The notes below the pieces were generated by a model. The model ran no database searches, had not been told where the DNA came from, and saw nothing but the letters and a program-made list of their open reading frames with translations. Shown here one piece after another: positions 5,159-32,369 of a stretch of DNA of 37,087 nucleotides. Source of the DNA: Sneathiella sp. (GTDB lineage: Bacteria > Pseudomonadota > Alphaproteobacteria > Sneathiellales > Sneathiellaceae). Numbering within the stretch: the stretch's first letter is position 1; each line of letters opens with the position of its first letter. Location: NCBI GenBank assembly GCA_021741195.1, contig JAIOYL010000010.1, positions 1 through 37,087 of the forward strand. Direction: 5' to 3'. The translations under genes were made by a program, and so were the position numbers.

Positions 5159-5527
5159 TTATGATCTGGCTTTCGTCCGCGGCCAGCGAAGGAACAGAAT
5201 CATAACGCCAATTCCGCCAAGAATTCCGGACAGGTTCGCCGCCATATCGAGAAGTTCGAAATCCCGGCCGACATAAGGCTGTATGAACTCAATAGCGACG
5301 CTGATCGCGAATGTAATGATGCAAAGCAGAAACCTCTGACGCCATTCACTGCTCGCATGACAGGCGATATGGGCAACAATGCCATAGCAGACGAAATGCT
5401 TCACCTTGTCATTCAGGAAGCCTGAGAAAGCGGGTTCTTGGCCAGGGGGCATAACGGACAGGACAGCGATTGCAAGCATTCCGGTCCCCCAAAGAAAATA
5501 GGCTACTCGGAAATTACCCAGAGGCAT
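5159..5527 (-). CDS. VanZ-like membrane protein
   Basis: A 122-residue membrane protein with about four hydrophobic segments. VanZ-family marks are LNDKVKHFVCYGIVAH (the Asp-Lys and His-Phe pair) and AIEFIQPYVGRDFELLDMAANLSG (the Glu-Gln, Gly-Arg and Asp-Asn residues). The biochemical role of such short VanZ proteins is not settled. They often lie near exopolysaccharide/exosortase genes, and this one sits next to such a locus, divergent from the sugar transferase gene across about 200 bases. Confidence 0.8.
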   Translation of the reverse strand: MPLGNFRVAYFLWGTGMLAIAVLSVMPPGQEPAFSGFLNDKVKHFVCYGIVAHIACHASSEWRQRFLLCIITFAISVAIEFIQPYVGRDFELLDMAANLSGILGGIGVMILFLRWPRTKARS

Positions 5528-5599
5528 TATTTTTACTACTCATAAAGCTTCCATTTGAGGCGGAGTGATTTATAAAAAATTAACCTTAATGAATGTAAA

Positions 5600-5628: not shown

Positions 5629-5727
5629 GTATTCTTTGAGGCAGGTCGAGGCCAGTCATTACCTGAATAAAGAACGCATTTTCTCGCTGGGCTGAAAATA
5701 TATCAGGCCGGCTTTCGGAGTGATTTG

Positions 5728-7200
5728 TTGAACAAGATTTCGAATGACGGATTAAAAAGCAGGAATGCTTCTGCTGGGAACGGCTCCAGGCTTGGGGGCG
5801 GTTATCCATTGTCTTCGCGCGTATTGACTCGCATTTTTGGCTTTCTGGATATTTTCTGGCTGGTTCTTGCGGGTTATCTCAGTTTTTACTTTGTGATCGG
5901 CGGGAGTTTGATCGCGCATGATAACTACCTGATTGCAATCATCCTTGCCGTGTTCATTTTCTTTTTGCTGGGACGCTACGCCGGGATTTATTCCTTCTCG
6001 ACAATAATCTCGCCTCTGACGAATTTACCGAATCTGGCGATTGTCTGCCTGACGACGTTTATGCTCTTGCTGGCCATTGCCTTCTCTTTGAAGGTTTCCG
6101 GCGAGTTTTCCAGAATCTGGATGTATAGCTTTGGATTTGCTACGTTTTTCGTTATCCTGGCCCATCGTCTTATCGCTTTTGTTATTATCAACTACCTTGC
6201 CAGCCGCGGAATTTGTACACGGAAAGTGGTGGTCCTTGGCGGAGGAAAGCAGACGGAACGCCTGCTCCGCCAGCTGGAGAACGAAAAGCCCACTATCAAC
6301 AAGGTCGTCGGAATTTTTGACGATCGGATCGGCCGCGTCGGGCCAACGGTCGGCGGGCATTCTCTGCTTGGCAATATCGACGCTCTGATAAAGTTCGTCC
6401 GCAACAATCATGTTGACGATATTATTGTGGCGCTGCCCTGGAACGCGGATGAACGGCAGATAGAGATTGTCAGCCGGCTCCGCGAACTGCCGGCCCATGT
6501 CCATCTGGTTTCGGATCTGGTGGGCTTTCGCTTTCCCTATCAACCCTCACCCAATCATTTCGGCGGCGTCCCTATGATCGAAGTGGTTGATTCGCCGCTT
6601 TCAGGATTTAAAATCGTTATCAAGGCTCTGGAGGACCGGATTCTTGGTTCTTTGGCGCTGCTTGTCTTTTCTCCGGTTTTTCTGCTGGTTGCTCTAGCCA
6701 TCCGGCTGGAAAGCAAAGGGCCAGTCCTGTTCAAGCAGAAACGCTATGGGTATAACAACCAGATATTCGAGATCTATAAGTTCCGCTCCATGTATCATGA
6801 CGGCGAGAAACGCGCCGTGACGGTGCAGGCGTCGAAAGACGATCCGCGCATCACCCGTGTCGGCAAATTCATTCGCAGGACCAGTCTTGATGAATTGCCG
6901 CAGCTTTTCAATGTCGTGTTGGGCACTATGTCACTCGTCGGCCCGAGACCGCATGCAATTGATCATAATGAAGAATACTCGGAACTGATAGAAGGTTACT
7001 TTGCACGGCACAAGGTTAAACCCGGAATAACGGGTTGGGCGCAGGTAAAGGGGTATCGTGGCGAAACGGATACACTTGAGAAAATGGAAGCCAGAGTGAC
7101 GTATGATACTTATTATGTTGAGAACTGGTCGCTATTTTTTGACTTGCAGATTTTGGCAATGACCGTTTTCGTAGGCTTTATTAACAAGAATGCGTATTGA
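5728..7200 (+). CDS. Polyprenyl-phosphate sugar-1-phosphate transferase (WcaJ/PHPT type)
   Basis: A 490-residue membrane enzyme that transfers a sugar 1-phosphate from a nucleotide sugar to undecaprenyl phosphate, the first step of lipid-linked exopolysaccharide repeat assembly. About four transmembrane segments occupy residues 35-160. A Rossmann-like domain begins with [15 protein letters not shown] further membrane segment near 305-328 leads to the bacterial sugar transferase domain with KFRSM (about 352-356), [14 protein letters not shown] and PGITGWAQV. The sugar (glucose, galactose or other) cannot be fixed from sequence. The start is TTG at 5728 or 5725; GGAG at 5717-5720 favours 5728. 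It is the first gene after the locus promoter. Confidence 0.93.
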
Positions 7201-7513
7201 TGGAAATACACTTTGATGAGACAAAGATTGCCGAATTGCAAAAATGCGGGCAATTTTCACAAATTTCCCACATTTTTAGTATGTTGTAATATAGTATTCA
7301 TTGATTGGCCGGATGTTTTTCGGAAAATAAAATTTGACGCAATCTTGCCTAATTATTGCAGATACCAACCATTCCTTAACTCTTTGCACCTAAAAAGGCA
7401 TATGGTATTTGCTGATCCGGTCGGATGGTTGTAAGGCGTACCTACAGATCGACTGTGAAGTATCAGACTATGATTTTCTGTTGCGATTGCACTTAACGAA
7501 TTCGAGTAAAAGA
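7201..7513 (+). other. AT-rich intergenic region before the chain-length determinant gene
   Basis: These 313 bases hold no coding sequence I can support. An upstream in-frame extension of the chain-length gene from about 7409 exists, but it looks unlike a protein N-terminus. The segment is visibly AT-rich. A weak promoter-like pair is TTCACA and TATGTT with 18 bases between them, around 7256-7285. A small dyad ATCCG/CGGAT lies at 7415-7426. The length suggests a secondary promoter or a long leader within the locus. Confidence 0.4.
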
Positions 7514-9166
7514 ATGAGCCAAGATTTTACGTTACATGAAGAAGAGGCATCGCCGATTAACTTGGGCGCCATCCTGGCGGCCGCCAAAAGACGGTTCTTG
7601 TTTTTTTTGATTCCCTTTGTCCTCATCCTGGTCGGAAGTGTGGTTGTTGGTCTCGTTTTACCACCGGTCTATAATTCACAAGGTACAATTCTGGTCGAAA
7701 CTCAGCAAATCTCGCCTGATCTTGTAGACTCGGGTGTCAATACAGACCCCAATCAGCGGATTACGATGATCAAGCAACGGGTAATGACGCGTGAAAATCT
7801 GCTGAAGATTATCGATAAATATAATGTATTTGGAGACGACAGAAAAATCCTGCCGGTCTCGACACTGGTTGAAAAGATGCAGGATGAGATATGGGTTGAT
7901 GTCATAACATCTGCCGTTGGCAGCGGACGGAGAGGTGACACGACAATCGCTTTTAATGTAGGTTTTTTACACGAAAACCCGAGAATGGCCTCGGAAGTGG
8001 CAAATGAGCTTGTTACCTTGTTTTTAAGCGAGAATGTGAGAACAAGAACGGAGCGCGCCACCGAGGCGACCGCCTTCCTGAGTGACGAAGCGCGGAAAGT
8101 TCGCGAGCAGTTGACTGAGGTTGAGAATCAGATCGTCGCTTACAAACAGAAGCATGGGAATGCGTTGCCGGAACATCTTGGCCTGCGTCAGAACATGCTG
8201 GAAAGAACAGAAAGTGAAGCTCGTGACTTAAATCGGGATATTCGGGCGCTCGAAGAAGACAAGCGTTATCTTCAGATCGAACTGACGTCGGCGAAAACCG
8301 GCCGGACATCAGCAGGAGGCGGCGGCAGCGACCAAACGGAACTGGAACGAAATATCGCCGACCTGAAGAAATCGCTTCTTGATGCCTCTACCCGGCTTAC
8401 AGATTCTCACCCGGATATCATAGCGCTCAAGAAGCGAATTGCCGCACTTGAAAAGCAGCAAGAAAAGGAAAGTACTGCAGCACTCGCTTCGGCGGCGGCG
8501 GAAAAGCCGGCCCCGGACGCTGTCTATAATCCTTTGGTCGAAAAGCTACAGATACGGATTGACGCAACGGATCAGAAAATTGCCGAGGCAAAACGTCAAC
8601 TCGCGGCGACCAAGAAGAAAGCCGCGCAACTTGAAGACATCATTATTGAAATACCGCAGGTCGAGCGTGGACTAACTGTTCTCGATCGAACCTACTCGGA
8701 TCTTCTGGGCAAGCTAAATGACCTTGAAGGAAAGCAGGCGCAGGCGCAGTTGTCGCAAAATCTTGAAGAAGAGAAAAAGGCGGAACGCTTTGTCCTTATT
8801 GAGCCGCCTATCGTCCCTACCAATCCCATTTCACCGAACCGCGTGAAGATCATGGGCGTGGGCAGTTTGTTCGCTCTGGTTTTTGGTGTCGCCTGTGTTT
8901 TTCTTATCGAGTTCTTTGACAAGAGAATAAGAAGCGCCGCGGAACTGGAAGCTGTTCTCAAGCATCCTCCAATCGTGTCAATTCCGTATATTCATACGAA
9001 GGAAGAAGCAAACCGGCATAATCTGAAGGTTGTTCTTTACTTCCTTGTGCCTGTCGTTCTTCTTGCCGGATTGCTGATGGCCGTCCATTTCCTCTATCAG
9101 CCGCTGGATGATTTATTTTATAAGGCCTGGGTGGCCTTGGACAAACTCAAAGTTATGTTGTTCTAG
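7514..9166 (+). CDS. Polysaccharide chain-length determinant (Wzz/PCP, exosortase-locus type)
   Basis: A 550-residue inner-membrane polysaccharide co-polymerase that sets chain length together with the tyrosine kinase encoded next. A transmembrane segment at about residues 28-50 is followed by the Wzz domain. A long periplasmic coiled-coil region rich in Glu, Lys, Gln and Ala comes next. The family proline motif PIVPTNPISPNR precedes a second membrane segment, and a third hydrophobic stretch lies near the C-terminus (VVLYFLVPVVLLAGLLMAV). The ATG at 7514 was chosen because the first 35 in-frame codons upstream look non-coding; the ribosome site is weak. No kinase domain is fused. It is nine bases upstream of the kinase gene. 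Confidence 0.9.
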   Translation: MSQDFTLHEEEASPINLGAILAAAKRRFLFFLIPFVLILVGSVVVGLVLPPVYNSQGTILVETQQISPDLVDSGVNTDPNQRITMIKQRVMTRENLLKIIDKYNVFGDDRKILPVSTLVEKMQDEIWVDVITSAVGSGRRGDTTIAFNVGFLHENPRMASEVANELVTLFLSENVRTRTERATEATAFLSDEARKVREQLTEVENQIVAYKQKHGNALPEHLGLRQNMLERTESEARDLNRDIRALEEDKRYLQIELTSAKTGRTSAGGGGSDQTELERNIADLKKSLLDASTRLTDSHPDIIALKKRIAALEKQQEKESTAALASAAAEKPAPDAVYNPLVEKLQIRIDATDQKIAEAKRQLAATKKKAAQLEDIIIEIPQVERGLTVLDRTYSDLLGKLNDLEGKQAQAQLSQNLEEEKKAERFVLIEPPIVPTNPISPNRVKIMGVGSLFALVFGVACVFLIEFFDKRIRSAAELEAVLKHPPIVSIPYIHTKEEANRHNLKVVLYFLVPVVLLAGLLMAVHFLYQPLDDLFYKAWVALDKLKVMLF

Positions 9167-9175
9167 GGGGTCGAT

Positions 9176-9994
9176 GTGGAACGTATTAAAGAAGCAATCG
9201 CCAGGGCTAAAGAGAAACAGGCGGGCGCCCCTAAAGACCGGATGGGGTCCGCCGCAGCGGCCAAAATTAAGAATGCGGAAATTGTTGAAGGCCCAATCGT
9301 CTATGACCAAACGCGGGTGGTCGAGCTCGATATCGCGCATTTGGAACGCAACCGGATTATCACACTTGATAGTGAAGACCCGAACTCAATTAGTTTCGAT
9401 ATCTTGAGAACTCAGATCCTGGCGAAGATGGAGGCGAATGACTGGCGGACGCTTGCCATCACATCGCCTACGCCCGCCTGCGGGAAGACAGTGGTTGCCA
9501 TAAATCTCGCGCTAAGTATTGCCAAACAAACCGATTACACTGCCCTTCTTGTAGATTTTGATTTACGTCGCCCACAGGTGGCGGCGTATCTCGGCTTGCC
9601 GAAGGAGAACAGTTTTTCGGACTATCTGGATGGCAAGATCGAGTTTAATGACGCCTTGATCAACCCGGGGATTTCCCGCTTTGTTGTGCTTCCGAACCGC
9701 CGACCGATAAAAAATTCAACCGAAATACTGACCTCGCGCAAAATCAAGGCAATGGTTTCCGATTTGCGCGATCGCTATGAAAAGCGCATCTGCATTTTTG
9801 ATCTTCCTCCCTTGCAAGCGACAGATGACGCGATAGGCTTTATTCCCCAGGTCGATTGCGTGCTGCTGGTGGTCGCGAGCGGAGAAACCAAACCTGCCGA
9901 AGTCAAAGAGTGCCGCCGGCAGCTCCAGTCAACTAATTTGCTGGGCGTTGTTCTCAACAAATCGGAAGAAGTCTCCAAAACATACTATTACTAG
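9176..9994 (+). CDS. Tyrosine autokinase of the CpsD/CapB (BY-kinase) type
   Basis: A 272-residue cytoplasmic ATPase that autophosphorylates on C-terminal tyrosines and works with the chain-length protein to control polysaccharide export. The Walker A region is SPTPACGKT (residues 97-105, Lys104), Walker A' is LLVDFDLRRP (124-133) and Walker B is ICIFDLPP (205-212). The protein ends in a short tyrosine cluster, KTYYY. The N-terminus ERIKEAIARAKEK resembles kinases of exosortase-linked loci. The start is GTG at 9176 with a GGGGG element upstream. Cys in place of the usual Glu or Gly before Gly-Lys in the P-loop is a small oddity. Confidence 0.9.
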   Translation: MERIKEAIARAKEKQAGAPKDRMGSAAAAKIKNAEIVEGPIVYDQTRVVELDIAHLERNRIITLDSEDPNSISFDILRTQILAKMEANDWRTLAITSPTPACGKTVVAINLALSIAKQTDYTALLVDFDLRRPQVAAYLGLPKENSFSDYLDGKIEFNDALINPGISRFVVLPNRRPIKNSTEILTSRKIKAMVSDLRDRYEKRICIFDLPPLQATDDAIGFIPQVDCVLLVVASGETKPAEVKECRRQLQSTNLLGVVLNKSEEVSKTYYY

Positions 9995-10094
9995 CTTGTT
10001 GCTGTGTGGCGGCTATCCAAATTTCCGAAACGGTTGGGAACGATAGAATACCGGTCTAAACTCTATGTGACGTTTAGAAGTAATGAGGAAATGC

Positions 10095-11636
10095 ATGGAG
10101 TTGACGTTGCAACGGATTGACAGGACAAGATTGGTACTGCCCCTTCTGCTTTGCCTGGTCCTTTTCGTTTATATCCCCGACGGCGCCCTGCTTTGGGATG
10201 ACTGGATGGGCCTTGAAGAGTTCAGCCATGGTCCGTTGATGCTTCTGGTTTCCCTCTACCTGTTATGGGCGCGCCGCAGTCTCTTGCAATCCCATGATAG
10301 CCGCGGCAACTGGCTTGGGCTGGCATTTTGCCTGATTGCGGCAATTGTTTATGCCCTCGCGATAAAGGCGGGAATAGAAAATATCCGTCATTTGAGCCTT
10401 TTCCTGATGATTTTAGGGTTATTCATGGTGTTTGGCGGTATTACCTACGGCCGTTATGTTCTGCCCTCTCTTGTCTTGCTGCCTTTCGTGGTGCCACCGC
10501 CTGCCTTTTTGAATGCAAACCTGACTTACGGACTGCAGCTCTTTTCGACAGATATGAGTGTCGGATTGCTGCGCGCCGCCGGGCTTTCCGTGTTTCAAGA
10601 CGGCAATATCATTGATATGGGTACCGTCAAACTGGCGGTTGTCGAGGCATGCGCGGGCCTTCGATATCTCTATCCGATGATCGGTCTTGGCGTTCTTCTG
10701 GCGATGCTGTTTGATATGCCGCTTTGGAAGCGGGCCCTGTTTGTCGTTTTTGCCGCCATTGTTTCCGTCATCATGAACAGCGTCCGTATTTTTCTTACCG
10801 GCGCTTTCGCGGAATGGACCGATACGGCTGTTTCCGACGGATTTTTCCATCTGTTCGAAGGCTGGGTCTTTTTTCTGTTCTCCTTTGTGGTGATGCTGGC
10901 GGTTTGCTATCTGACGCTTAGCAGAAAGGAAAAAGCAACGATTGGCGGCGGGGTTTTGAAAGTCTCCGTGCCTAAGGGACAGGATGTTGAAAAACCCGCG
11001 CGCATCGGGCCGATAATTGCGGTCAGTTTGCTGTGCATCGCCCTCGTCCTGAGCATTACCATGCTCCGGGGCCTCAAGCCGGAAATTCCGGAGAGGAGGT
11101 CCTTTTCAAGCTTTCCTCTTAAAATCGATGGCATGATAGCGGAAGAGGATGTGCTGCCCAGTGTTGAGCAGACAATCCTCAATATGAGCGATTATTTCCT
11201 CGGCCATTATCATGAAGACGGCGAACCTTCGGTGACTGTCTTTATCGGATATTATGAGCAACAGTCAGCCGGCAGCACACCGCACTCTCCCCGGGTTTGT
11301 ATCCCTTCCGGGGGCTGGAAAATTCAGGACCTGACAGAGATTACGCTGAAAAATGGCGATACCGAGGTTCCCGTCAACCGGGTTCTCGTCACCCATGGCG
11401 AAGACAAGCTGCTTGTCTATTATTGGTTTCAGCAACGTGGTAAATATATTGCAAATGAATATAAGGCGAAATTCAACCTGCTTTGGGGCGGCCTGACGTC
11501 CGCGCGTACGGACGGAGCGCTTGTGAGATTATCGATGCCGGTCGAGTCAACCATGTCGGAAGCACGGGCGGATGAAAAGCTGACTGAATTCTCGAAAGAG
11601 CTTTTCAAGGTTCTGCCGACGTACGTTCCGGATTAA
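10095..11636 (+). CDS. Exosortase fused to EpsI domain (XrtD-like)
   Basis: A 513-residue polytopic membrane protein. Exosortases are cysteine transpeptidases that process proteins carrying PEP-CTERM-type C-terminal signals. The catalytic triad is visible as Cys186 in VEACAGLR, Arg231 in NSVRIFLTG and His252 in FHLFEGW, within about eight membrane segments (residues 12-275). A linker and another membrane segment near 295-310 lead to an EpsI-like periplasmic domain containing HSPRVCIPSGGW. Single-chain exosortase-EpsI fusions include the VPLPA-CTERM enzyme XrtD of alphaproteobacteria; that subtype is inferred from architecture only. An upstream ATG at 10083 exists, but GAGGA at 10085-10089 fits the ATG at 10095 best. 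Confidence 0.9.
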   Translation: MELTLQRIDRTRLVLPLLLCLVLFVYIPDGALLWDDWMGLEEFSHGPLMLLVSLYLLWARRSLLQSHDSRGNWLGLAFCLIAAIVYALAIKAGIENIRHLSLFLMILGLFMVFGGITYGRYVLPSLVLLPFVVPPPAFLNANLTYGLQLFSTDMSVGLLRAAGLSVFQDGNIIDMGTVKLAVVEACAGLRYLYPMIGLGVLLAMLFDMPLWKRALFVVFAAIVSVIMNSVRIFLTGAFAEWTDTAVSDGFFHLFEGWVFFLFSFVVMLAVCYLTLSRKEKATIGGGVLKVSVPKGQDVEKPARIGPIIAVSLLCIALVLSITMLRGLKPEIPERRSFSSFPLKIDGMIAEEDVLPSVEQTILNMSDYFLGHYHEDGEPSVTVFIGYYEQQSAGSTPHSPRVCIPSGGWKIQDLTEITLKNGDTEVPVNRVLVTHGEDKLLVYYWFQQRGKYIANEYKAKFNLLWGGLTSARTDGALVRLSMPVESTMSEARADEKLTEFSKELFKVLPTYVPD

Positions 11637-11751
11637 TATTCGAAACGCCAAGACTTGCCGCGGTCGAAGAGAAATGATGAATAAGGTAAGCCGGGCGCGG
11701 CGCGATAAAGCGCGGGAACATAATCTTTTCCAAACTGCAGTGGAGGATGTA

Positions 11752-13404
11752 ATGGCGCAGGATTCAGCATTTATCGTAAAGGCGAGAAAAATCATTCCAC
11801 TTTTTTTACTTGGCATTATGCTGGGACAGGCAGCGTGCGTTCAGGATAGCGTGGGCGGTAACGCCGGCAGCCGTCCGACAGGAGAGGATGCCAAGGTCAT
11901 TGCGCATTGGAATGTCGTCCCCTATCAAGCGATTAACACGCCCTTTAATGCCGGAGTTGTTGCCTTTCACATTAACGGGATTGACCGGGTGGATTTCCGG
12001 GTAAACGGTGGCGATGCCATCACCGTGACCGAAATGAGTCTTAATGAGCGGACCAACACTTATGAATACTGGGCGGCCATTGACCCGGCGTCGCTTGGCC
12101 CATTGAACAAGGAAAAGCCGGTTATAGAAATATCTGCAACGGCTTTTCCCAAAAAAGCGGGGATACCACGGCAATTGGAACCGATGTTTCTGAACGTGAA
12201 ACCGGCGGACGAACGTCAGGATGCGTTTGTCTGGGTCTCGGGCCAGGGCGATGATAGAAAAGGCGACGGAACGAAAACCAAACCGTTCCGGCAGCCGGCG
12301 CGTGCATTGGAGGCTCTTGAGGAAATAGAGGATGACCGTGACGAGGCGGTTTTCGGAACGGTCTATCTCATGGAAGGTGAATATATCTGGGGATCGTCCG
12401 GCCATTCCGCGCCGCAATCGGAGGACCGCTGGGCTGTGATTGCGGCGGCGCCCGGCGTTGAAAAAGGCAAGGCTGTTTTTAATGGCGATGACGGTGGCGG
12501 GTTTCTGCCCAAATTGCTGAAGGTGAAGGGTGTGACCATTCAGAACGTTTACTTCGTTCCCGAGGGCGGGAAGCCGAGCCGTTTATGGCTGGATAACAGT
12601 GACATGATTGGTCAGGGCGCAACGACGGGAGAGGGTTTTTACCATTCGCCTGCCTGGAAAGATGCCTACTTCACCAATGTTCACCTGTCTGCCTTTCCGA
12701 ACGGGGCGACGGATCTGACTATCGCCCGGGACGTAAAGATTTCGAATATCGGCTCCGACGCGTTTAGCGGATCGCGCCTTATCGTCAATAGCGAGGTGGA
12801 CGGGATCGACCGCGGTGACACTAAATTCCACCCGGATGTTTTCCAGATATATTGCGGCAACACCGACATGGAGAATTTTATCATCTACGGGCTTGTCGCG
12901 AAAAATGCCGAAGCGCAAGGCATTTTCGCCGGTGGCTGTTCGTCGCTCAATAATGTGGCGGTTGTCAATGCGCTTTTGGTCCGGCCGCTGCATTCGAAGT
13001 TGCCGTTCTTTTCGCAATGGGGTGTTCCGGCGAACCATTTAATCCTGTCCGGCGTCACGCTTCCTAATTCCGCATTTCTCTGGCGTAACAACGAAGTGCG
13101 GAATGTCCTGATTGACGGGTCGGTTTTTTACGCCATGGGGACCACTTTCAAGGGATATGGATTTGAGGATGGCGCGATTGCCTATCAGCACAACCATATT
13201 CTGGACACCCGCGGCGGTGGTGGCATGCCTGTCGATGGTATCGATATTACATCGGGAGACGCGGAATTCGTCGATGAAGATGAAGGTGATTTCCGGCCGA
13301 CACCGAATTCGCCGCTTCGCAACCGCGTTGACAACCCCTTCAGCAAGGTTGATGCCACAGGCAGGCCAAGAAAAGCGCCGTCGACCATTGGCGCCATCGA
13401 GTAA
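11752..13404 (+). CDS. Secreted right-handed beta-helix protein, possible lipoprotein
   Basis: A 550-residue protein with a signal-like segment IIPLFLLGIMLGQAAC; Cys29 may be lipidated, though Gln at -3 is unusual. An N-terminal beta-rich domain is followed by VSGQGDDRKGDGTKTKPF, the usual entry to a pectate-lyase-like beta-helix. The rest has repeated short strands (VKGVTIQNVYFV, NFIIYGLV). Such folds bind or cleave polysaccharides, but I see no assignable catalytic residues. The position between exosortase and glycosyltransferase suggests a role in polymer modification or surface retention. The ATG at 11752 is chosen because GGAGG sits five bases upstream; an in-frame ATG at 11674 lacks such a site. 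It has no exosortase C-terminal signal. Confidence 0.8.
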   Translation: MAQDSAFIVKARKIIPLFLLGIMLGQAACVQDSVGGNAGSRPTGEDAKVIAHWNVVPYQAINTPFNAGVVAFHINGIDRVDFRVNGGDAITVTEMSLNERTNTYEYWAAIDPASLGPLNKEKPVIEISATAFPKKAGIPRQLEPMFLNVKPADERQDAFVWVSGQGDDRKGDGTKTKPFRQPARALEALEEIEDDRDEAVFGTVYLMEGEYIWGSSGHSAPQSEDRWAVIAAAPGVEKGKAVFNGDDGGGFLPKLLKVKGVTIQNVYFVPEGGKPSRLWLDNSDMIGQGATTGEGFYHSPAWKDAYFTNVHLSAFPNGATDLTIARDVKISNIGSDAFSGSRLIVNSEVDGIDRGDTKFHPDVFQIYCGNTDMENFIIYGLVAKNAEAQGIFAGGCSSLNNVAVVNALLVRPLHSKLPFFSQWGVPANHLILSGVTLPNSAFLWRNNEVRNVLIDGSVFYAMGTTFKGYGFEDGAIAYQHNHILDTRGGGGMPVDGIDITSGDAEFVDEDEGDFRPTPNSPLRNRVDNPFSKVDATGRPRKAPSTIGAIE

Positions 13405-13418
13405 CGAAAGAGAGTATC

Positions 13419-14366
13419 GTGATCCACCCAGAAGTTTCGATTATTGTTATCAGTTATAATACGCGTGAGCTGACTCTAGAGTGCATAAGATCGGTTTTCG
13501 ATCAGACAAAAAATGTCTCGTTTGAGCTGATTGTGCTCGACAATGCTTCCAGTGACGGCTCCGCTGAAGCCATTGCCGAAGAATTTCCCGATATCCATCT
13601 TATTGCCTCCAAGGAGAATGTCGGCTTTGCGAATGGTAATAACCTGGCCATCGGGCAGGCAAAAGGAGACTTCATCCTCCTGTTAAACCCCGATACGGTC
13701 GTTTTGGATCACGCCATCGACAATATCGTCGAGTTTGCAAAGGCCAATCCCGAAGCCGGAGTCTGGGGGGGGCGGACTTTGTTTGGCGACCGTAGCCTGA
13801 ACGCAACTTCTTGCTGGCACCGGATGACGGTTTGGTCGCTCTTTTGCTATGTGACGGGATTAAGTGGCATTTTACCGTCGAGCGCTTTGTTCAATGTCGA
13901 AGGATATGGCGGCTGGAAGCGGGATACGGTTCGCGAAATTGATATTGTAACGGGCTGTTTTCTTCTCATTAAAAGGAATTTGTGGAATGAACTTGGCGGT
14001 TTCGACCAGCGGTTTTTCATGTATGGCGAAGACGCGGATCTTTGCCTGCGGGCTAAAAGCCGCGGCGCGCGGCCAATGATTACACCGACGGCGACGATTG
14101 TTCACTATGGCGGACAGTCGGAGAAAATCGTCGCCGACAAAATGATCCGCCTCCTGACAGCCAAGGTGACTTTGATGCAGCGGCATTGGACTCCCATGAC
14201 AAGGATTTTTGGCTATATTCTGTTTTATTGCCTGCCGCTCAGCAAAATCCTGACACATTGGCTTTATTCTACCCTCCTGCGCCGGAAAAACCGGAAGACC
14301 AACGCAGATACCTGGAAGGAAATCTGGGCCAAGCGGGATAAATGGCTGGCTGGATTTAGCGGCTGA
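13419..14366 (+). CDS. Family 2 glycosyltransferase (rhamnosyltransferase-like)
   Basis: A 315-residue GT-A fold enzyme that adds one sugar to a growing lipid-linked repeat on the cytoplasmic side. The N-terminal Rossmann-like part has VSIIVISYN and DNASSDGS (41-48). The nucleotide-sugar metal site is LLNPDTV (Asp92), and the acceptor region has GGFDQRFFMYGEDADLC (GEDADL at 203-208). The overall pattern resembles WbbL-type rhamnosyltransferases, but donor and acceptor are not determined. A hydrophobic stretch near the C-terminus may associate with the membrane. The start is GTG at 13419 with GAGAG upstream, 14 bases after the beta-helix gene. It is the last gene of the forward cluster before a terminator. 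Confidence 0.92.
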   Translation: MIHPEVSIIVISYNTRELTLECIRSVFDQTKNVSFELIVLDNASSDGSAEAIAEEFPDIHLIASKENVGFANGNNLAIGQAKGDFILLLNPDTVVLDHAIDNIVEFAKANPEAGVWGGRTLFGDRSLNATSCWHRMTVWSLFCYVTGLSGILPSSALFNVEGYGGWKRDTVREIDIVTGCFLLIKRNLWNELGGFDQRFFMYGEDADLCLRAKSRGARPMITPTATIVHYGGQSEKIVADKMIRLLTAKVTLMQRHWTPMTRIFGYILFYCLPLSKILTHWLYSTLLRRKNRKTNADTWKEIWAKRDKWLAGFSG

Positions 14367-14495: not shown

Positions 14496-16577
14496 TCAGG
14501 TCAGGAAATCGCTATTATCCAGATCGACTGCGGATACCCCGATCAGCTGAATTTCCATATCGATGACGAAGTCGCCATTCAGATCAACAGAAAGCACGTC
14601 CGTACTGTCATTGAAGGAATAATCGAAGCCGGTGGCGGCAAATCCTTCGAATGAAAGATGGTCGCCGTTAGTTGCGTCGAAATCCAGGATAACATCGCGG
14701 TTAGCAGCGCCGATACCGGAGTCACCGACTTCCGTATAGACGAAAGTATCGGAGCCAGCGCCGCCGGTAAGCGTATCTGCGCCGTCACCGCCGATGATAT
14801 AGTCGTTGCCGCCAAATCCGAAAAGTTCGTCGTTGCCATCGAACCCGAAGATCTCGTCCACCGCTGCCGTACCTTCAATATGGTCGTTGCCGACGGTGCC
14901 TTCATTCCAGTTGTCATTGCTGGTAGTGGTCGTCGAACTTGCAACAGTCGTCGCAGAAGAGGTGCTGGATGTACTGCCGCCGTCCTGGAGCAGACTGACG
15001 TCGGCACCTGCATTATAGCCGTTTTCCACTGTGAAATCTGTCGCATCGACCGAACCTATATTCAGGTTGTTGTCGACGAAGATATCGTCATAGGAATAGG
15101 TCGGATTACTGCCCGCGTTCCACGGCACTGTGCTGCCATATGCAACGACATTGCCGCTTTCGCTGACACTGCTGTTGTTATAAATGAAGGAGTTCGAAAT
15201 ATTATCCTCAACGACCCCGTTCGTCACGTTGGACAGGCTGACCCACACTTCGTAGCCTGAAGCGCTGTCGACTGGAGAAATGACCGTATTCCCGGAGACA
15301 GACACGTCATTGGCGGTTGAGATACTAATGCCGTGATAGCCGGACTGGTAAATCACATTGTTCTCGATAACGACGTTATCCAACGGCAGATCCGAGGTCG
15401 CTGTCATGAAAATACCCTGAGTATCATAACCGTCGCCCTGAACCATAAGGTTGTTTTTAATAAGAATATCTTCGTTCGCCTGCAGACCGGCCGTTGCCCA
15501 GAACTGGACATAGTCCGAATGGTCGCCAGTCAGATGATAGAAATCGTGAAAATAGTTACCATCGATTATAACATCCTGGACGCCGGAGAAAGTGATACCA
15601 TCTGAACGGATATCATAAAATTCACTGTCGATGACGTTGACGCCATTCGAGCTAATGAAGCCGGCACCGCCTGACAAATTGTGAAATTCAGTATTTTCAA
15701 TAGTAATATCTTGCGAATTTTTGACGATAGCGCCGATAAAGCCTCCATATATGGCGCCGTCTACGTCGTTACCGATAACGCTGTCTGAAATAACGATATC
15801 AGAACTGTTATTGATAGTGACAAGATATTCACCCCAGGAACCAGAGGCCGCGTTGTAGGAGCTAATATCAAGATTGTCGAAAACCATATTTGACGAATTG
15901 CTTACGGTGATCGATTCAAAATGAGCAGGATTATCCGGGTTCGCCGAGGTGATCGTTACCGGGGATGAGAAATTATAACCATTCAGGTTGATTGTATCAT
16001 ATTCACCGGGCGCGAGGACAATTGTATATCCCGAAACATTTCCGGAAAGCGCCTTGATAAGCTCTGCAGTGCTGCTGACTTCAATGTCGCCCGCCGTTGA
16101 AGAGGTGCCGCCGCCAGACCCGGCATTTGTTGAGCCGCCTGTATTTGCTACCGGCTCATCCCGGCCATTCACATTCACGACAACCTCTGAGGTCGTTCCG
16201 TCAATGGTTTGTACGGTGAAGGTCTCCGTCACCACTTCCCCGGTATCGAGCCCGGTCAGGTGATCTGAATTTGTCAGCGTGTAGGTCCAGTTGCCGTTTC
16301 CATCGATAGCAAAGTTGCCGTAATCACCATTTTCGGTTGCGTCCTGAAAGCCGCTTTCTCCAGCATCTGCGTCGGTTGCGGTCAGTTTGCCGCTGCTCGT
16401 CAGATCTACATCTTCCGTTACATCACCGCTGGATGTGCCCGTAATAATCGCACTGCTATTGCCGTCAACCGGAATATTTGTGTCAACAACCGGGTCGGTC
16501 GTAGTGACATTGTCCGGATTGGTGTCCACGACCGTCGTTGAACCCGTTCCGTCTCCCTGTCCGTCGATCGACAGCAT
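14496..16577 (-). CDS. VCBS/beta-helix/RTX calcium-binding exoprotein, possibly 5'-truncated
   Basis: A 693-residue acidic Ser/Thr/Asn/Asp-rich protein of type I secretion style. Residues about 50-140 form a VCBS-type domain (GDVTEDVDLTSSGKLTATDA). Residues about 165-510 form a right-handed beta-helix with many Asn-rich turns, like polysaccharide lyases and C5-epimerases. A Ser/Thr linker leads to RTX repeats (GNDELFGFGGNDYIIGGDGADTLTGG, given in parts: GFGGND, GGDGAD, GGAGSD) and a serralysin-like C-terminus. There is no classical signal peptide, as expected for secretion by a C-terminal signal. The ATG at 16577 has no ribosome site, and a TGA lies in frame seven codons upstream, so the original N-terminus may be lost. 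No secretion ATPase gene is in the window. Confidence 0.82.
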   Translation of the reverse strand: MLSIDGQGDGTGSTTVVDTNPDNVTTTDPVVDTNIPVDGNSSAIITGTSSGDVTEDVDLTSSGKLTATDADAGESGFQDATENGDYGNFAIDGNGNWTYTLTNSDHLTGLDTGEVVTETFTVQTIDGTTSEVVVNVNGRDEPVANTGGSTNAGSGGGTSSTAGDIEVSSTAELIKALSGNVSGYTIVLAPGEYDTINLNGYNFSSPVTITSANPDNPAHFESITVSNSSNMVFDNLDISSYNAASGSWGEYLVTINNSSDIVISDSVIGNDVDGAIYGGFIGAIVKNSQDITIENTEFHNLSGGAGFISSNGVNVIDSEFYDIRSDGITFSGVQDVIIDGNYFHDFYHLTGDHSDYVQFWATAGLQANEDILIKNNLMVQGDGYDTQGIFMTATSDLPLDNVVIENNVIYQSGYHGISISTANDVSVSGNTVISPVDSASGYEVWVSLSNVTNGVVEDNISNSFIYNNSSVSESGNVVAYGSTVPWNAGSNPTYSYDDIFVDNNLNIGSVDATDFTVENGYNAGADVSLLQDGGSTSSTSSATTVASSTTTTSNDNWNEGTVGNDHIEGTAAVDEIFGFDGNDELFGFGGNDYIIGGDGADTLTGGAGSDTFVYTEVGDSGIGAANRDVILDFDATNGDHLSFEGFAATGFDYSFNDSTDVLSVDLNGDFVIDMEIQLIGVSAVDLDNSDFLT

Positions 16578-24437: not shown

Positions 24438-26036
24438 TCAATGGCGGAAATGTCGCATACCTGTGAAGACCATGGCAAGCCCGGCGTCATCCGCAGCCGC
24501 AATCACTTCATCGTCGCGCATGGAGCCGCCGGGCTGGATAACCGCAGTTGCGCCCGCTTCCGCGGCGGCCAGCAGACCGTCGGCAAAGGGGAAGAAGGCA
24601 TCAGAGGCGACGACGGAGCCTTTCGCCCAAGGGGTTGTTTCCCCGGCATTCTGGGCTGCTTCCAGTGACTTGGAGGCGGCGATTTTCGACGAATCAACCC
24701 GGCTCATCTGCCCGGCGCCAACGCCGACGGTCGCGCCGTTTCGTACATAGATAATAGCGTTGGATTTGACATGCTTGGCGACTGTGAAGGCAAATTTTAG
24801 GTCCTTCAATTCCTGCGCACTCGGTGCGCGCTTGGTGACGACTTTAAGTTCCGGTGTTGCCGTCAGCGCGTTGTCGCGATCCTGGATCAGATAGCCTCCT
24901 GCAAGCGATTTCACCAGCCTTCCGCCAATTGCCGGATCGGGAAGGCCGCCGGTCAATAGCAGGCGCAAGTTTTTCTTGGCGGCAATAATTTCCTTTGCTG
25001 CTGCATCTGCGTCCGGCGCTATGATGACTTCGGTGAAAATCTTGACAATTTCCTCTGCGGTCGCCGCGTCCAGTGTTTGGTTGAGGGCAATAATCCCGCC
25101 GAAGGCTGAGGTAGTGTCGCAGACGAAGGCGGATTTGTAGGCCTCGACCAGAGTTGAGCCCATCGCCACGCCGCAAGGATTGGCATGCTTGATGATGGCG
25201 CAGGCCGGACCGCTGGTTTTCGGGTCAAATTCGGCAACCAGTTCCAGTGCGGCATCGGTATCGTTGAAATTATTGTAGGACAGCTCCTTGCCCTGGATTT
25301 GGCGGGCGCTGGCGACACCAATCCGTTTCTCGTCATTGGCATAGAAGGCGGCCGACTGATGCGGATTTTCGCCATAACGCAGGACCTGCTGACGGGTCCC
25401 GGCTAGCACCAGACGATCCGGGAAAGTCTCACCGAGCTGTGTGGCATACCAGCTGGAGATCGCCGCATCATAGGCGCCTGTCCGCGCATAGGCTTTGGCC
25501 GCCAGTTTTTTGCGAAGCTCGATACTTGTCTTGCCGCCGGTCGCCGTCAGTTCGTCTATCACAGCCGTATAATCACTGGCATCGACAACGACCGTGACGA
25601 AGCCATAATTCTTGGCGGCGGAACGGATCATGGCGGGTCCGCCGATATCGATATTCTCGATGCAAGTATGGAAATCCGCGCCCTTGGCGACGGTTTCCTC
25701 GAACGGATAAAGATTGACTATCACCAGATCAATGCCGCCAATGTCATGATCGGTCATCGCCTTTACATGATCCTTGTTATCGCGAAGCGCCAGAATGCCG
25801 CCATGGATCTTCGGATGCAGGGTTTTTACCCGCCCGTCCATCATCTCCGGAAAGCCGGTATGCTCAGCGACTTCAGTCACTTTGATCCCGGCATCCATCA
25901 GCATTTTGGCGCTGCCGCCAGTTGAGAGAATTTCGACATTCAGCGCGGCGAGCGCCTGACCAAGCTCGACAAGGCCGGATTTATCTGAGACGGAAATTAG
26001 AGCGCGGGAAACCGCTTGCAAATCGGTGCGGGACAT
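24438..26036 (-). CDS. purH: Bifunctional AICAR transformylase/IMP cyclohydrolase
   Basis: A 532-residue enzyme for the last two steps of de novo purine synthesis: formylation of AICAR with 10-formyl-tetrahydrofolate, then closure to IMP. The N-terminal cyclohydrolase (MGS-like) domain has [15 protein letters not shown] and [12 protein letters not shown]. The transformylase domain has the catalytic Lys-His in KHANPCGVA (about residues 282-290), and [17 protein letters not shown] near the C-terminus. The length is normal. The ATG at 26036 is the only plausible start, with AGGA about twelve bases upstream. In many alphaproteobacteria purH follows a rsmB-heparinase string; here a divergent dehydrogenase gene stands between. 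Confidence 0.97.
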
Positions 26037-26082
26037 CGACGAACGTCATCCTTTAAAAGAGGGGATTCGGAAGTATGCGCGC

Positions 26083-31454: not shown

Positions 31455-32369
31455 CTAGGCTGGCTTGCCGTGTTCCGACAACCAGATGCCGAACAGGACC
31501 AGGCCGAGAGCGACGCCATGGTACATCTCGAAGGGTTCGCCGAGAAAGGTAACGGCGAGAATGGCGGCAAACACGGGCACCAGATTGACAAAAACGCCAG
31601 CCCGCCCCGGCCCGAGCATACCGACGCCGGTGATAAAGGCGATCTGGGCGATGAAGGACGGGAATAGGGTGATCATGGCGATTACCATCCAGCCAGTCGC
31701 CGTCGGCGCCTGAAATCGTTCAAGCCCAATTTCGATAAAGACGAAGGGCAAGGATGTGACAAACGCCGCCAGCGCCATAATCGTAAAGAAGGCTAACGCT
31801 GAAACATTCGGCCGGTTGCGCAGCGCCACCGTATAACCCGCATACAACACACAGGCGGCCAGCATCATTGCATCGCCGCGATTAATTTCAAAACTCGCGA
31901 GCCGCTGAAGCGACCCGCCCGATCCGACAATGACGACACCGGTTATGGTCAGCAGCACGCCGACAATCTGTAACGGCGTCACTTTTGTTTTCAGCGCGAG
32001 AAAGGCGCCGAGAAGCACGAACACGGGGATCGAGCCCTGCAGGATGCCGATATTTACCGCCGTCGTTGAATGGGCGGAAAGATAAAAGAGGATATTGAAA
32101 CCGGTGAAGCCAAGGGTACCCATTGCCAGAATATAACCCAGGCGGTGGCGCAAAATCGGCCAGTCGCGGCGGACATGGTTTCGGGCAATGATTGTGAGCA
32201 GTATGACAACGCCAAACCAGCGCAGGCTGACAATGGCCATGGGCGAGACCTCGCCAACCGCAAGCTTCCCCAAAACCGCATTCATCGCCCAGCAAAGAGA
32301 CGTAAGGGTCAGAAGCAAGTAAGCGCGCAGGTTTCCGGCTTTCGGAACTGTTTCATCAGCTGTGTTCAT
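31455..32369 (-). CDS. EamA/DMT family transporter
   Basis: A 304-residue inner-membrane protein with about ten hydrophobic segments in two EamA repeats. The first repeat begins LLLTLTSLCWAMNAVLGKLA and the second DAMMLAACVLYAGYTVALRN. Short inter-repeat loops and the Pro-Val-Phe run near the end of each repeat (GSIPVFVLLGAFLAL, NLVPVFAAILAVTFLGE) are typical. Such carriers export metabolites or amino acids; the substrate is not predictable. It lies nine bases after the EVE gene on the same strand, so it may be the last gene of that run. Confidence 0.9.
   Translation of the reverse strand: MNTADETVPKAGNLRAYLLLTLTSLCWAMNAVLGKLAVGEVSPMAIVSLRWFGVVILLTIIARNHVRRDWPILRHRLGYILAMGTLGFTGFNILFYLSAHSTTAVNIGILQGSIPVFVLLGAFLALKTKVTPLQIVGVLLTITGVVIVGSGGSLQRLASFEINRGDAMMLAACVLYAGYTVALRNRPNVSALAFFTIMALAAFVTSLPFVFIEIGLERFQAPTATGWMVIAMITLFPSFIAQIAFITGVGMLGPGRAGVFVNLVPVFAAILAVTFLGEPFEMYHGVALGLVLFGIWLSEHGKPA

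Follow-up and report, generated by a model that had tools for sequence, protein, structure and literature searches.

In the accepted view, exosortases cleave exported proteins that are still anchored, doing so at a C-terminal motif, after which the products are released or attached to the surface matrix. The VPLPA-CTERM tail is the named partner signal of the subtype known as XrtD, a pairing represented by the models TIGR04152 (enzyme) and TIGR03370 (tail). In the PEP-CTERM/EpsH system, as set out by Haft et al. (2006; PMC1569441), 90% of EpsH homologues lie near exopolysaccharide genes, EpsI is found adjacent to or fused with EpsH and the substrates are dispersed. A further paper (PMC12188702) reports that deletion of a cyanoexosortase abolishes motility and biofilm formation, and discusses whether the enzyme helps to attach exopolysaccharide to the cell surface. 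A literature search covering few subscription journals returned nothing on exosortases in connection with VPLPA, XrtD or Sneathiella.

Here we analyse a window of about 37 kb, the complete contig C153 of a Sneathiella sp. genome (G000; 3.38 Mb in 220 contigs, 92% complete), in which the gene at 10095..11636 (+ strand) encodes a 513 amino acid exosortase with a fused EpsI (DUF3485) domain. Judged from sequence, this is very probably an ordinary EpsI-fused XrtD exosortase, located in an exopolysaccharide cluster and likely to act on VPLPA-tailed proteins encoded on contigs C110, C52 and C39. It resembles the XrtD/VPLPA-CTERM system in passing the XrtD model, in its exosortase–EpsI fusion and in the presence of VPLPA-type tails in the same genome, but differs in that those tails fall below the stock VPLPA cut-off and only three were found. 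With the PEP-CTERM/EpsH system of Haft et al. (2006), the locus shares the exopolysaccharide cluster, the association with EpsI and the dispersal of substrates, whereas its motif is VPLPA rather than PEP.

The exosortase domain (approximately residues 20–271) matches PF09721 (Exosortase_EpsH) at 206.2 bits (cut-off 25.7), and the EpsI domain (approximately residues 312–510) matches PF11984/DUF3485 at 178.7 bits (cut-off 26.1) and TIGR02914 EpsI at 133.7 bits (cut-off 42.8). The first-pass annotation had described an intact exosortase–EpsI fusion, which these matches and the presence of Cys186, Arg231 and His252 confirm. It had also guessed at an XrtD-like subtype; the guess was right, since the protein passes the NCBI model TIGR04152 (XrtD, 'VPLPA-CTERM-specific exosortase') with 464.6 bits against a curated cut-off of 400. 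Generic exosortase models were passed too, but XrtD was the only subtype model to be so: the next-ranked subtype, XrtW, scored 275.6 bits against a cut-off of 425 and XrtA 177.4 bits against 208. The open reading frame can be extended to a start at 10083, but the start at 10095 is preceded by AGGAAA and is where the matches to relatives begin. A simple 19-residue hydropathy cut, a rough method, gives eight membrane segments, where about eight would be expected. The closest named relatives are from Sneathiella genomes (79–82% identity), S. chungangensis and S. litorea being among the species with the cluster, and a sequence search of solved structures found no relative, returning only a lipocalin at E 0.27. 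The genome contains no other exosortase.

The Cys/Arg/His triad was examined in a 28-row alignment comprising the window's protein (P0001) and 27 relatives from related loci, among them a second copy of P0001 and fragments. C186 (in EACAG), R231 (in NSVRI) and H252 (in FFHLF) are identical in all 26 ungapped rows.

The genes around xrtD make up the usual exosortase setting, an exopolysaccharide neighbourhood. The cluster begins with a WcaJ-type undecaprenyl-phosphate glucose phosphotransferase (5725..7200, +; TIGR03023 509.6 bits, cut-off 410.75), followed by a polysaccharide chain-length determinant (PCP/Wzz) of the XrtA-system type (7409..9166, +; TIGR03007 274.3 bits, just below the cut-off of 278.85) and a CpsD-like ATPase resembling the XrtA-associated tyrosine autokinase (9176..9994, +; TIGR03018 158.7 bits, below the cut-off of 230.65). 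Downstream of xrtD lie a gene for a 576 amino acid protein with one hydrophobic segment near its N-terminus and no Pfam or NCBIfam match (11674..13404, +) and a family-2 glycosyltransferase gene (13419..14366, +; PF00535 88.7 bits). The former protein has a 62% identical counterpart in the cluster of genome G011. Comparison with nine related loci (L157, L161, L162, L038–L041, L043 and L045) shows the order WcaJ, PCP, CpsD, XrtD preserved in every one, and the upstream side, with dus and AMP nucleosidase, in seven (the exceptions being L157 and L162). Beside the polysaccharide cluster, on the minus strand at 14496–16577, is a gene for a 693 amino acid protein that combines RTX calcium-binding repeats with a VCBS domain and a beta-helix, and that may act on polysaccharide after type I secretion.

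No protein with a sorting tail had been seen in the window at first pass, and profile searches and a tail scan of the contig likewise found none. Neither the stock VPLPA model, searched across the whole genome at E ≤ 10, nor a genus-derived tail model (A1, described below) produced a match on this contig, and in an hmmsearch over the open reading frames of the window and nine related loci the best window frame reached 6.5 bits (E 0.87). A crude scan for hydrophobic and basic tails picked out three window frames (32054–32281, 5159–5539 and 24438–26045), in all of which the motif was absent by eye.

The targets had been supposed to lie elsewhere, and a scan of the whole genome bears this out. 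Using the stock VPLPA and PEP-CTERM models, A1 and a VPL/FPA DNA pattern, we found three proteins ending in motif, helix and basic residues, all on other contigs. The C110 protein (P0002) is 202 amino acids long, with a hydrophobic, signal-like N-terminus and the C-terminal end SAVPLPAALPLYGAGLAVMGFVGWRKRRKSATATA; reading of the sequence together with hydropathy indicates that export signal, motif, helix and basic tail are all present, and its ectodomain passes NF050191 ('exosortase-dependent surface protein') with 33.8 bits against a cut-off of 29. The C52 protein ends in SEVPLPVAWPLFGAALLGIGYLGRHRKKRPVQEK, with the motif variant VPLPV, and the C39 protein in SVIPLPATLPLFFAGLILMAFVGWCKRRRANIRR, with the variant IPLPA; both have hydrophobic N-termini. 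The absence of a target at the locus is thus ordinary, because proteins with matching tails are encoded on other contigs. To the extent that the first-pass annotation implied something odd in a locus lacking an adjacent substrate, dispersed substrates are already described by Haft et al. (2006; PMC1569441), as are EpsH–EpsI fusions.

A1 was built from 27 tails, that of C110 (row 1) and 26 from relatives, with the C52 and C39 tails not included. Across the genome it gave E 2.8e-16 for C110, a score that is partly circular because the C110 tail is a row of the model, 3.4e-11 for C52 and 1.9e-9 for C39; the next match was at 0.159. From that value downwards, the matches on C36, C184 and C15 were not accepted as substrates once their frames had been read, C184 having a helix and basic tail at its end but lacking the VPLPA motif. 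Against stock VPLPA-CTERM (TIGR03370) C110 scored 18.9 bits in the genome and 19.9 as a protein, short of the cut-off of 25.35, and against the stock PEP-CTERM model 19.9 bits (cut-off 20.7); we term P0002 VPLPA-type on its anatomy, the stock cut-off not being reached. C52 and C39 are absent from both stock match lists for the genome. The second stock VPLPA match, on C26, is a chance one, its frame stopping with neither a helix nor basic residues at the end, and among the five sub-threshold stock PEP-CTERM matches C110 is real by its anatomy while the other four lack a terminal motif. The VPL/FPA pattern, which is blind to the C52 and C39 variants, gave 29 matches against 54 in a reversed control; inspected by eye over up to 60 amino acids of tail, only C110 runs into a helix and basic tail. 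Further substrates could exist, since the genome is 92% complete.

Enzyme and tails were then compared across 24 genomes of the genus, this one included. PF09721 matches in 17, and the same 17 match TIGR04152, exceeding its cut-off in 16; the exception is G023, where XrtD is split over two contigs. A1 tails occur in 22 genomes, among them all 17 with an exosortase match; the search included the genomes that supplied rows of A1, and high scores in these arise partly by construction. Tails and exosortase are both absent from G018 and G022. Orthologues of the C110 protein (63–77% identity) are present in eight other genomes, all of which have XrtD, that of G023 in its split form. Genome G001 links signal and enzyme directly, since its exosortase cluster itself contains a VPLPA-type gene (L157:10085-10726, minus strand), flanked by those for WcaJ and PCP.

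Against strict pairing, five of the seven enzyme-negative genomes have tails (G009, G012, G013, G016 and G017), of which G013, G016 and G017 are only 56–66% complete. G012 (94% complete) has three tails, the best at E 5.7e-15, and no exosortase, EpsI or PCP match. G009 (99% complete) has 31 tails, and a search of it for exosortase, EpsI and PCP found no match. We read the stretches around its tails and most of its contig ends. Its contig C17 opens with a VPLPA-type gene (L193:258-896) that shares 57% identity with the in-cluster gene of G001; WcaJ (L193:1294-2799) comes next and then the upstream genes also present in G001; the contig ends about 260 bases past the VPLPA-type gene, where PCP, CpsD and XrtD would be expected next. 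The simplest explanation is a gap in the assembly, the contig having broken within the operon; a less likely one is a true deletion with its end at this point, which would make G009 a substrate genome lacking the enzyme.

It had been suggested at first pass that the enzyme might recognise some unidentified signal, the VPLPA proteins then being incidental. That there are only three targets, none above the stock-model cut-offs, would fit such an undescribed signal, but this reading is most improbable given that the enzyme belongs by model to the VPLPA-specific subtype, that it is the sole exosortase of the genome and that across the genus the enzyme is accompanied by tails. Equally improbable is that XrtD is an inactive relic: the target set is small beside those of relatives (up to 31 tails), but the reading frame is open, the triad invariant, the surrounding gene order conserved in named Sneathiella loci and the C110 protein retained in other XrtD-bearing genomes.

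Family, intact site, gene cluster, tails and co-occurrence are thus established at the level of sequence for an ordinary XrtD system. From what is established for the family, XrtD would most likely work in the inner membrane, on exported proteins held there by a C-terminal anchor of VPLPA motif, helix and basic tail; its Cys/Arg/His site would cut them at the motif or close to it, and the product set free would join the surface polysaccharide. The role of EpsI may be considered on the same footing. Residues 397–402 of the EpsI domain form an HSPRVC stretch in which H397, R400 and C402 are invariant in 26/26 ungapped rows, which is weak evidence because many residues are invariant among relatives this close. 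We suggest, as an outside chance, that the fused EpsI is a working partner in which HSPRVC could form a second reactive site, handing the cleaved protein to a polysaccharide or lipid acceptor.

The system is an ordinary one of known type, and the puzzle of the absent target is explained: for exosortase systems in a fragmented genome, a substrate missing from any one contig is to be expected. What novelty remains is small: the VPLPA tails of this genus are a low-scoring variant, and the conserved EpsI stretch has a candidate role. The stock VPLPA model misses some tails of the genus, finding one in this genome where the genus-derived model finds three, and the short, conserved list of targets here would suit a small test set for XrtD.
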